Positions 9,996 through 25,839 of a DNA stretch of 28,490 nt are shown here, in pieces. The position numbers were made by a program, and so were the translations under genes. Source of the stretch: a virus; IMG/VR virus record IMGVR_UViG_3300008113_000282, positions 1 to 28,490 of that record; one strand, given 5' to 3'. Below the pieces are notes generated by a model, which saw nothing but the letters and a program-made list of their open reading frames with translations, was not told the DNA's origin and did no database searches. The stretch's first letter is position 1. The number at the start of each line of letters is the position of its first letter.

Positions 9996-11200
9996 CTAAA
10001 CTGTGAGTTTAAGTATTTACTAACCTCAATGTCTATTTCAAAATTAAATAGTTTGTCTGCACTTGCTACCTTGTATGTGTAATTTGTACTCGCAATTGTC
10101 ACAGGGAAATATGCACCTTGTACCTCAATATAACATATTGAACTCGCAACCAATTGAGCCAACCATGTATAATCCTGTTCACTAACCCAATCAGATATTA
10201 AATGAAATCTGTCTTTATGTTGTATTGCATAGTTCAAAGAAGTTTCATTATACCTGTTGTAAGAATCCACATTTTTCATCTGGTTGCCTGATAACTGCCA
10301 ATCATTTCTTCTGTATGAACTCCTTTGAAATTCGCTGCTTCGCCTATTAACCAGAGCAAACTTCATTGTGTCCCAACCTCCGACTCTATTCAGGAAATGC
10401 AAGTTATATTGCTTGTACTTAGGATAGCATTTCTGCCTGATCTTTAAAACTCTTGAAACCGCAACTCCTCTTTTCAGATAGAAATTATAACCATATGTTG
10501 ATGAAGTTATTATTGTACTTCCTGCCCAATCATTAACGTGAGCAGCCTGTAAATTAAAAAGATTCATCTCTCCTGCTAAACTGATGTTTGCACTAACAGT
10601 AGTTAAAACCTGTTCTCCTGAATCAACAACCTCAACCCATGCAGAATATGTACCTCCTGTTTTCTTAAAATATGTTGCATAAAAATTGTCACCATATTCA
10701 ATTCCTATATTATCAGTATCTCTTTCTGTTAGCCAATCATCACTAAAATTCTCAATCAAAAGATTATCATAATAGTTTGACAGGACTAATGGAGTATTAT
10801 CATTAATTGCGAGTATATCCGCAAACAATGGTGGATAGTAATTGTAACTACTGAACTCACCAGATGCCATATTTCTGGTTATAGTTCCTGTGACCTCCTC
10901 ACCTACAGCAACATTATAAGTTACTTTTAATTTGTCATTAGATGCCACCAGAATTGAATTTCCAGAAGGCTCAAAGTAATTTGTAACGTATGCCCTGACA
11001 ATTGGTGATGCATTGAAAATTCCAACACTACCTGATGGATCAGGGAAAACCTTTACTGTGCTAACTATATTTCCGTTAACCCTTACATCATACACAAATT
11101 TAAAATTTGTAGTTCCTGAGTTTGTGGATGTTGAAACAAACCACAAATCATCATGCAGAGATGCATATGCTACAGGACTATCTGTTATCGTTATTGCCAT
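9992..11200 (-). CDS. Tail structural protein, distal-tail-like
   Basis: A 402-residue beta-rich protein. The N-terminal half reads as repeated strands (SLHDDLWFVSTST, NFKFVYDVRVNG); the C-terminal half has HFLNRVGGWDTMKFAL and EFQRSSYRR, which resemble segments seen in Bacteroidota phage tail proteins, ahead of the central tail hub. The product probably forms part of the tail tip or baseplate ring. It overlaps the next gene by four bases. Exact assignment needs structural comparison. Confidence 0.55.
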   Translation of the reverse strand: MAITITDSPVAYASLHDDLWFVSTSTNSGTTNFKFVYDVRVNGNIVSTVKVFPDPSGSVGIFNASPIVRAYVTNYFEPSGNSILVASNDKLKVTYNVAVGEEVTGTITRNMASGEFSSYNYYPPLFADILAINDNTPLVLSNYYDNLLIENFSDDWLTERDTDNIGIEYGDNFYATYFKKTGGTYSAWVEVVDSGEQVLTTVSANISLAGEMNLFNLQAAHVNDWAGSTIITSSTYGYNFYLKRGVAVSRVLKIRQKCYPKYKQYNLHFLNRVGGWDTMKFALVNRRSSEFQRSSYRRNDWQLSGNQMKNVDSYNRYNETSLNYAIQHKDRFHLISDWVSEQDYTWLAQLVASSICYIEVQGAYFPVTIASTNYTYKVASADKLFNFEIDIEVSKYLNSQFR

Positions 11201-23955: not shown

Positions 23956-24633
23956 TTATTTTTTTAATAAGTTATCAAAATATTCAGCTACTGCCATTCT
24001 TCTGCAAGCTAATTCCATGTATTCATCATCTTCTAACAACTCATTCATTTCTTTTTTTTCTTTATATGAAGCATATAAGAATTTCTTTTTTATTGCTTCT
24101 TCTGTTCTTTTTAAAGTACCTTCAAAATCTGTTATTAAGTTTTGTTTATACAAAATATTAAAACATCTTAATCCATAGAATATATGCTCCCAGTCTTTGT
24201 TTTTCTTGTAAATATCCATTGACATTTGTAATATTTCATCATCTGATATTTTTGGAGCTTCTATTTGCTTTTGTTCTACAGGTTTTTCTTCAATTTTATG
24301 TCTATAAGCCCATCTTGCATATGATGTCATTAATCTTGAAAGATACAATGCTGAAAAATTTTGATATGTTTCAGGATTTTCATCAAGTTTGTTTTTAATC
24401 ATTAAATCAAAAGCTAATTTAAACTCACCAATCGGTAACTGTCCATAATCAACTCTCATCATTTGACTCATGTATTTTATTTCAAATTCTGATGGTAATC
24501 TTTCTCCTTTTACACCTAAAAGAATCATTGCTTTTGTTATAATCTCAACTATATCAATAGTTGATGAGTCCATTAGCTTTGGAGTCTTCTTGGCTTCCGA
24601 TAGAAGCTCTAAGTCTTTCGTAATAGTCTGCAT
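23956..24633 (-). CDS. Unknown protein in replication operon, helicase-loader position
   Basis: A 225-residue helical protein. The central part (about 60-115: DYGQLPIGEFKLAFDLMIKN, then ETYQNFSALYLSRLMTSYARWAYRH) resembles a conserved segment I associate with unannotated Bacteroidota phage replication proteins. No Walker A motif is visible, so it is not a DnaC-type ATPase. It directly follows the replisome organizer, where many phages place the helicase loader. The ATG at 24633 gives an 80-base overlap; ATG at 24573 (residue 21) would shorten this to 20 bases and is an alternative. Function remains a positional guess. Confidence 0.65.
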   Translation of the reverse strand: MQTITKDLELLSEAKKTPKLMDSSTIDIVEIITKAMILLGVKGERLPSEFEIKYMSQMMRVDYGQLPIGEFKLAFDLMIKNKLDENPETYQNFSALYLSRLMTSYARWAYRHKIEEKPVEQKQIEAPKISDDEILQMSMDIYKKNKDWEHIFYGLRCFNILYKQNLITDFEGTLKRTEEAIKKKFLYASYKEKKEMNELLEDDEYMELACRRMAVAEYFDNLLKK

Positions 24634-25222
24634 ATATTTCCGTTTTTGTTTTTGGTGATTTAAAACTATTGTTAAAATTAGAATTATTTATCCAAACTGC
24701 TAACATTTTTTGTTTCCAATTTTTTACTGGTTTTCCTTTGCTATCATGCCAATTAGCAGTTTCATAATATTCAAAAGCTTGTTTTGCCTTTTCTACAGTT
24801 GATCCTTTTTCTATAAAATAATCTTCAACTTCTGAAACTGTTGGCTTCTTTAATCTCTTATTTTTATTTTCATTTATATTTTCATTTTCATTTTCCATAT
24901 GCATAGGCATATGCTGTTGCATATGCTCAGGCATATGCTTAGTTTTTGCATTATTTCTTCTTGAATTGGTATAATTTGACCTCTTTTCTGATTCATCAAA
25001 CATTCTCTTATTGATATAATACCCATCTACAAGTTCAAATTTATCATATACATCAGGTGCATATGCTTTGCATATGCTTAGCATATCCTTTTCTGTTAAC
25101 TTACCTTTTTGATGTTGCAAACATAATAACCTTATGTACATTCCAACTTCTTCATTTGTCATTGAAAATGTTCCACTTAAAAAATCACTTGTATAAAATA
25201 AGACTGCTGGATCTTTTGCCAT
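24554..25222 (-). CDS. Replisome organizer-like replication initiation protein
   Basis: The 222-residue product starts with a winged-helix-like domain (about 1-80; KDPAVLFYTSDFLSG, NEEVGMYIRLLCLQHQKG) of the kind found at the N-terminus of phage replisome organizers and DUF1376-type proteins. A low-complexity linker follows (about 95-122: His-Met repeats, then Glu-Asn repeats). The C-terminal domain (about 125-190; EVEDYFIEKG, NWHDSKGKPVKNWKQK) is typical of the same family. Such proteins bind origin repeats and bring in the helicase loader. The linker and part of the N-domain are encoded by the iteron-like repeats, as in lambda O. The end overlaps the next gene by 80 bases. Confidence 0.7.
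   Translation of the reverse strand: MAKDPAVLFYTSDFLSGTFSMTNEEVGMYIRLLCLQHQKGKLTEKDMLSICKAYAPDVYDKFELVDGYYINKRMFDESEKRSNYTNSRRNNAKTKHMPEHMQQHMPMHMENENENINENKNKRLKKPTVSEVEDYFIEKGSTVEKAKQAFEYYETANWHDSKGKPVKNWKQKMLAVWINNSNFNNSFKSPKTKTEIYADYYERLRASIGSQEDSKANGLINY
24895..24942. repeat. Iteron-like cluster A, four 12-base direct repeats
   Basis: Units start at 24895, 24907, 24919 and 24931, each with core GCATATGC (the first begins CC) and a variable four-base spacer. The period is exactly 12 bases, close to one helical turn. It encodes the His-Met-rich linker (residues 96-109) of the replisome organizer. Confidence 0.8.
25059..25088. repeat. Iteron-like cluster B, three GCATATGC copies
   Basis: GCATATGC starts at 25059 and 25070, and a one-mismatch copy GCATATCC at 25081, spaced exactly 11 bases. 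On the coding strand they fall in three different codon frames (GAT ATG; AGC ATA TGC; GCA TAT GCA), so protein repetition cannot explain them. Confidence 0.7.
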
Positions 25223-25275
25223 AAAATAAAAATCCCTGAATGGGATTGGAAATGCAGTTCCGCACCCATCAGGGA
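25223..25275 (-). terminator. Terminator-like leader hairpin 2 abutting the start codon
   Basis: On the minus strand TCCCTGA pairs with TCAGGGA (seven pairs), then TGGG with CCCA beyond a bulged T. After an internal loop, GGAA pairs with TTCC around the loop CTGCAT. The run TTTTTATTTT follows directly and touches the ATG at 25222. A strong stem plus U-tract is an intrinsic terminator. Because no promoter is visible between it and the gene, it must act as an attenuator if the gene is expressed. Confidence 0.75.
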
Positions 25276-25293
25276 CATTAATGTTTTCTTATA

Positions 25294-25309
25294 GAAGGCT
25301 GCATCCTTC
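25294..25309 (-). promoter_or_regulatory. Leader hairpin 1, loop AUGCAG
   Basis: GAAGG and CCTTC form a five-pair stem around the six-base loop ATGCAG (minus strand). It begins where the transcript from the 25316 promoter should start. The loop is the exact reverse complement of the apical loop of hairpin 2. Confidence 0.55.
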
Positions 25310-25315
25310 GTATTG

Positions 25316-25345
25316 CAAATTTAACAATTAATTTCTAAATTACCA
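25316..25345 (-). promoter_or_regulatory. Candidate promoter for the replisome-organizer operon
   Basis: The -7 box TAAATTTG (25316-25323) matches TAnnTTTG; 19 bases upstream lies TGG, one base off the -33 TTG. Predicted initiation, 5-7 bases downstream of the box, falls at about 25309-25311, the first base of the first leader hairpin. The promoter overlaps the end of the DnaA-like gene. Confidence 0.45.
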
Positions 25346-25839
25346 TGATTAATTTTTAATCTACCTTCAATAATATCTTTACATTGATTGTATTTTGATG
25401 CAAAAATTTCATCTACTTCTAATAAATTCTTGCATTTTTTAACAGAACTTATAACTGTAGTATGATCAGCATATGTAGATAAATATTCACCTATTTCTTT
25501 GTAACTTAAATCAGTATATGTTCTTAAAAGTAAACATACACAATGTCTTGCATCAGTAACTTTTCTATGCCTTGTTTTTAACCTACAATCTGTTTCAAAA
25601 ACATAATTTACACTTGCTATTACTTCATCAGCTGGCTTATGTGTATAAACAGCAGTTCTTTTAGTTAATGGATAATGTTCTAAAAGACGCTGTAGTTTTA
25701 ACATGCTTTCTTCATGTTCTTTTATAATACGGGTAAAATCATTAATAATATTAAGAATAGTATTACGAGTTACTATATGTGTCCCTATTTGATTCTTTAA
25801 TATATTAGAATTAATTCTTAGTTCATCTACATTAATCAT
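25321..25839 (-). CDS. DnaA domain IV-type DNA-binding protein, no AAA+ ATPase
   Basis: Residues about 70-150 of this 172-residue protein match DnaA domain IV: basic helix R90-R98, the helix CLLLRTYTDLSYKEIGEYL, and the signature DHTTV (residues 125-129) that contacts DnaA boxes. The N-terminal 65 residues are a charged, probably coiled helix unlike DnaA domains I-III; there is no Walker A or B motif. It should therefore bind DNA sequence-specifically without ATP-driven oligomerisation. The next gene downstream contains the repeat clusters described below, a natural target. It could be an initiator, an origin-remodelling protein, or a competitor of host DnaA. Confidence 0.75.
   Translation of the reverse strand: MINVDELRINSNILKNQIGTHIVTRNTILNIINDFTRIIKEHEESMLKLQRLLEHYPLTKRTAVYTHKPADEVIASVNYVFETDCRLKTRHRKVTDARHCVCLLLRTYTDLSYKEIGEYLSTYADHTTVISSVKKCKNLLEVDEIFASKYNQCKDIIEGRLKINHGNLEINC

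Follow-up and report, generated by a model that had tools for sequence, protein, structure and literature searches.

The window analysed here, that is, the whole stretch of DNA taken from a viral record, comprises 28,490 bases. The gene at 24554–25222 on the minus strand encodes a protein of 222 residues that probably starts DNA copying, and we refer to it as the replisome organizer. An N-terminal DUF1376 domain (residues ~10–94) is followed by a linker (~101–122) and a helical C-terminal domain. DUF1376 (PF07120) is a Pfam family whose function is unknown; the organizer matched it with an E value of 3e-6 and 27.9 bits, under the gathering score of 30.1. Its sequence relatives span DUF1376 proteins and it also matches PHROG primosomal protein families, while the lambda O family was not among the Pfam and PHROG matches in these profile scans. 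In the AlphaFold2 model, the pLDDT was ~90 at residues 11–80 and below 50 at residues 101–122, consistent with a disordered linker. The modeled N-domain consists of helices at 11–18, 23–39, 44–51 and 56–59, a two-strand wing, and a helix at 72–94, and the C-domain is helical. A VIA-align comparison of the N-domain gave a best Z of 5.1 (the ORC2 winged helix) and 3.6 for the N-domain of DnaD; a winged-helix N-domain has modest support from this modeling. Foldseek returned no match under an E value of 0.001 for the organizer model.

Two neighboring genes lie on the same strand. The gene at 25321–25839 (minus strand) encodes a syntenic protein of 172 residues with DnaA domain IV (Bac_DnaA_C, PF08299, E 9.9e-12), for which tblastn gave no match in named phages. 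Downstream, the overlapping gene at 23956–24633 (minus strand) encodes a conserved, syntenic protein of 225 residues in the position of a helicase loader, as with lambda P and SPP1 gp39. The 225-residue protein had no Pfam match, and a Foldseek search with its model gave no useful PDB match and only uncharacterised phage proteins. It is conserved and helical, and may represent a new type of helicase loader. The DUF1376 genes of named phages adjoin a gene for a DnaC-like loader, a DnaB-like helicase, a primase, or a DnaA-like protein.

Repeats in the organizer gene

We observed seven exact copies of GCATATGC in the window compared with 0.60 expected, and none of 100 shuffles reached seven. Five of the seven are inside the organizer gene, at 24907, 24919, 24931, 25059 and 25070, and near copies are found at 24895 (CCATATGC) and 25081 (GCATATCC). 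An earlier, sequence-only reading of this DNA had claimed seven copies here, with periods of 12 and 11 bp, and we recovered both the positions and the periods exactly, as five exact copies and one variant per cluster; the isolated copies that it listed at 11163 and 22474 are indeed the sole other exact ones in the window. When the organizer protein was held fixed and its codons resampled synonymously, five exact copies arose in 1 of 5000 rounds. The shuffles and the synonymous resampling together rule out chance or low complexity as the source of the repeats.

The core of the iteron is the 6-bp palindrome CATATG, which recurs at a spacing of 11–12 bp in two clusters. Cluster A (25059–25088) has GCATATGC at 25059 and 25070 and GCATATCC at 25081, with an 11-bp period, and coincides with DUF1376-domain codons, namely those of predicted helix 3 and the next turn. 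Cluster B (24895–24938) has CATATG at 24896, 24908, 24920 and 24932, with a 12-bp period, and lies with the A-rich tract in the linker codons. The four copies in cluster B are all read as HM, in a single codon frame (HMPEHMQQHMPMHM). The copies had been described as lying in all three frames, which fits insofar as the remaining two frames are those of the 11-bp cluster, but the four 12-bp copies share one. The further claim that the DNA and not the protein is repeated holds on the evidence of the relatives, which exclude a protein repeat, and not on that of the frames, which within the window alone leave room for one.

Directly 3' of cluster B, in the direction of the gene, lies an A-rich, strand-asymmetric tract (24857–24894, minus strand) with GAAAAT repeats on the gene strand. 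The tract had been called nearly AT-only; its position stands, and its A+T content is 89%. We presume it to be the unwinding element. In the relatives, the last CATATG of the linker cluster runs straight into an A-rich tract, and the next 45 nt rank at the 90th–100th percentile of A+T within the gene. The tract doubles as coding sequence for the NENENIN linker and could be conserved for protein reasons.

Selection on the repeats in relatives

Close and distant relatives were taken from viral contigs, partly metagenomic and several of them incomplete. In 25 DUF1376 relatives, we counted 114 CATATG compared with 53.6 expected from codon resampling with the proteins fixed (maximum of 70 in 2000 rounds), a null that is conservative because every HM pair is kept. 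The flanks of the same 25 genes mostly had 0–0.7 per kb. In DUF1376-type relatives, the motif occupies two places in the gene, at ~147/158 and at 286–350, and the linker cluster has two to six copies; 57 of 96 spacings were 11 bp and 30 were 12 bp. The bases flanking CATATG vary by lineage (GC..GC, AC..GT, TC..GA), which identifies the six bases as the core.

Depending on the relative, the motif is read in different frames as HM, NIC, TYV or SYD, giving peptides such as HMPEHMQQHM, STYVQHM and KHMKNICKTYDKHM, and in 9 of 38 genes all three frames are used within cluster B. Thus, the DNA repeat stays while the frame and the residues change. The pattern that the sequence-only reading had named as its refuter, the same protein without the DNA repeats, was absent among the relatives, and the reverse was found instead. 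As far as sequence comparison can tell, the repeats are selected as DNA and not as protein.

Could the two clusters be targets of one and the same protein? In a set of 67 DUF1376 genes that spans several phyla, the two clusters shared on average 12.4 7-mers per gene, compared with at most 8.5 in 5000 across-gene permutations and at most 8.1 in 300 codon resamplings. Gene by gene, 25 of the 67 reached p 0.05, and five DUF1376 genes (L129, L130, L136, L154 and L157) had no clear repeats in the 7-mer test. Several word lengths were tried in some genes, and the pooled tests are the reliable ones.

CATATG is frequent in DUF1376 relatives from bacterial genomes (Bacteroidota, Clostridia, Bacilli) and from named phages, and other lineages carry repeats of their own in the same two places. 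Pseudomonas phage PfDIW6 has CGTTCAACG at 183 and 194 in the domain and at 364 and 386 in the linker; an Acinetobacter phage has GAACCCATTCG at 214 and 225 versus 374; a Prevotellaceae genome has AGATAACC at 125 and 137 versus 384, 396 and 408; and a further lineage-specific repeat, GCCACGGC, is at 136 and 148 versus 313 and 325. In the cultivated Flavobacterium phage vB_FspS_morran9-1, a DUF1376 gene resembles the organizer in its domain/linker repeat but differs in the sequence repeated, the 24-bp GCAATGCGACCGCATTAAATCCGC, which occurs once in each place; a primase gene follows. The simplest explanation of the concert between A and B would be that both clusters are recognised by one trans-acting factor in each phage. 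The two-place arrangement also occurs outside DUF1376: in an organizer with a DUF6291 N-domain (L064, 5623–6258), the domain and the linker each contain CGTTAACG once.

Exchange of the N-terminal half

In about 30 phages, the organizer belongs to a conserved block of a 73-residue gene, the DnaA_C gene, the leader RNA, the organizer gene, and the 225-residue gene. Within the block, the N-terminal half of the organizer is swapped, being DUF1376, HTH_36 or Lin1244_N; across the swaps, the neighbors stay 94–99% identical, and every N-half has repeats of its own. Three phages (L028, L036 and L044) are 98–99% identical in DnaA_C, 97–99% in the downstream protein, and 91–99% in the C-half of the organizer, while their N-halves are unrelated and their repeats different. 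Organizers of the HTH_36 type have CCGAnnTCGG two or three times at a 16-bp spacing and no CATATG; in 11 such genes, there are 24 palindromes of this kind, with a two-base center, versus 0.37 expected. We read this array as a second, independent type of in-gene iteron. In HTH_36 organizers (L028-L061), the linker has the CCGAnnTCGG palindromes followed by 18-bp A-rich repeats.

Since the repeats change while DnaA_C and the C-half stay constant, both of these are poor candidates for iteron recognition, and the N-domain of the organizer appears to be the best one. The swap evidence is limited because the repeats travel physically with the DNA of the N-half; the concert between clusters A and B is unaffected by this.

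A leader RNA upstream of the organizer

Between the DnaA_C gene and the organizer, at a site on which the sequence-only reading made no comment, a pseudoknotted leader RNA with strong covariation is predicted at 25232–25309 (minus strand), with hairpin 1 at 25294–25309 and hairpin 2 at 25232–25276, followed by a U-rich tract and the start codon. Loop 1 (AUGCAG, 25299–25304) can pair with loop 2 (CUGCAU, 25252–25257). The fold has a z score of -3.81, and there is a terminator-like hit at the leader. Covariation was evaluated in an alignment of 12 distinct relatives whose paired segments were chosen by hand with the structure in mind, which favors the structure. In this alignment, 97.9% of pair cells were standard, 17 of 24 pairs changed on both sides, and the covariation score was 0.640, whereas shuffles scored 0.203 and slid versions no more than 0.13. 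Six of the seven loop–loop pairs changed on both sides, and ten different loop pairs were complementary at 6.85 of 7 positions on average, compared with 3.87 for mismatched partners. In more distant relatives, this site has long-range helices that differ in sequence. The 22 viral contigs that matched the hairpin-2 sequence were all already organizer contigs, and an Rfam search with the window and eight relatives returned no family matching the leader.

A box, TAAATTTG (25316–25323, minus strand), lies ~7 nt ahead of hairpin 1 and matches TAnnTTTG, which we take to be the consensus of the Bacteroidetes -7 promoter box. Relatives whose leader is of this class have the box ~97–104 nt ahead of the AUG, and from its position the transcript probably begins at hairpin 1. 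The leader would most likely control organizer synthesis, through transcription attenuation or at translation, and a terminated short leader RNA may act at the origin. In one relative (L044, 2166–2642), a GIY-YIG-like gene, T5orf172-like by eye, lies between the leader RNA and the organizer, and in another (L116) a GIY-YIG-like sequence seems to lie within the linker of the organizer, which may reflect homing into the predicted origin region.

A predicted origin within the organizer gene

From what the sequences themselves display (the repeats and their two-cluster layout, selection at the DNA level, the concert between the clusters, the order of iterons and then AT-rich DNA, and the change of iterons with the N-domain), we infer protein binding, melting, helicase loading, and a start of replication at the organizer gene. 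In the proposed mechanism, the predicted winged helix of the DUF1376 domain would bind the CATATG iterons of clusters A and B, whose spacing is one helical turn. Assembled on the iterons, the organizer would form a nucleoprotein complex able to melt the A-rich tract next to them, and its C-domain, probably with the overlapping downstream protein, would bring in the replicative helicase. We put the probability that 24554–25222 is such a replisome organizer, containing its own origin with iterons bound by the N-domain, A-rich melting and helicase recruitment, at about 0.85. The cumulative GC skew showed no inflection; with nearly every gene on the same strand, it is uninformative.

It is improbable, though conceivable, that the repeats are operators at which the organizer or another phage regulator acts as a repressor, controlling transcription without a role at an origin. 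Short palindromes are typical operator half-sites, cluster A is close to the 5' end of the gene, and the organizer could do both jobs. However, the densest cluster lies ~290 bp into the gene, away from the promoter and directly before the AT-rich tract, and helically spaced direct arrays beside AT tracts in replication genes are the origin layout of lambda (PMC7466680) and of SPP1 (PMC6316719). We consider still less probable an origin whose iterons are bound by host DnaA or by the DnaA domain IV-like product of 25321–25839, which the sequence-only reading had proposed as a second binder. That product is syntenic and by family has a DnaA-box-binding fold, but 98–99% identical copies of it sit beside completely different iterons. 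Moreover, CATATG iterons also occur in genes near which we found no DnaA_C gene, CATATG is unlike the DnaA box, and loosely matching boxes in the window fall outside the clusters.

Hardly credible is a third explanation, in which protein function maintains a His-Met repeat and the repeated DNA is its by-product. It would account for the single frame of the HM-encoding copies in cluster B of the window, but in the relatives the same motif, read in other frames, yields TYV, NIC, SYD or HM, resampling with the protein fixed yields half as many copies, and other lineages have unrelated residues and yet matching DNA in clusters A and B. A protein repeat as the cause of the DNA repeats is thus contradicted by the relatives.

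How closely does the predicted in-gene origin resemble known ones? In lambda, iterons and then an AT-rich tract lie in the middle of the initiator gene, between the DNA-binding and C-terminal domains, and among the O proteins of lambda and Stx phages the iteron number varies between relatives, adding residues to the protein (PMC7466680). The organizer gene shares with lambda O the iterons and then the AT-rich tract inside an initiator gene. On the other hand, its N-domain is DUF1376, its iterons are 6–8-bp palindromes every 11–12 bp where those of lambda are longer, a second cluster lies inside the codons of the DNA-binding domain where lambda O has four (to six) iterons in one linker cluster, and, unlike in lambda O, a pseudoknotted leader RNA is located upstream. 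The term "lambda-like origin" used by the sequence-only reading is therefore apt for the layout and the probable mechanism, with which all comparative tests fit, and does not extend to membership. In SPP1, the direct repeats and AT-rich unwinding element of oriL lie within gene 38 and are bound by gp38 (PMC6316719). SPP1 gp38 shares with the organizer the repeats and AT-rich element inside the organizer gene, but it belongs to another protein family and has another repeat, and the description consulted gives no two-cluster layout for it.

The YdaU protein of the Rac prophage in E. coli K-12 shares the DUF1376 domain, an ATPase-like gene, ydaV, lies downstream, and the YdaU C-domain is common to proteins annotated as replication protein O. 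The ydaU gene (L152, 4120–4977) has TGTTCAAACA three times in its linker and once, as a partial copy, within the domain. This iteron differs from CATATG, and the repeat between the two places is significant for longer words only (p 0.10 for 7-mers, 0.017 for 9-mers and 0.003 for 10-mers). Rac carries an active origin, oriJ (PMC3945230). The literature we found documents neither an origin function of ydaU nor the exact position of oriJ. We predict that oriJ sits in ydaU, for which the repeats are suggestive only.

Implications

We found no description of in-gene iterons in DUF1376 genes in the mostly open-access literature covered. What is new here is the domain family, the short palindromic iterons spaced by one helical turn, and the cluster within the codons of a DNA-binding domain. 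Taken more broadly, we lean somewhat toward the view that DUF1376 is a widespread origin-binding winged-helix domain, with bipartite in-gene origins (domain codons and linker) in phages from Bacteroidota, Clostridia and Proteobacteria, ydaU of Rac among them as the candidate oriJ site, and that its synthesis in Bacteroidota phages is additionally controlled by pseudoknotted leader RNAs of a new family.

This would give a common domain of unknown function a testable job and would pinpoint predicted origins across numerous phages and prophages, among them Rac of E. coli and cultivated phages of Flavobacterium and Pseudomonas. The pairs of N-domains and iterons would form a natural series for working out the recognition rules of origin binding. 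In the two-cluster layout, one stretch of DNA must both encode a DNA-binding domain and be its predicted target, and the leader RNA offers a possible control of replication initiation via the synthesis of the initiator.
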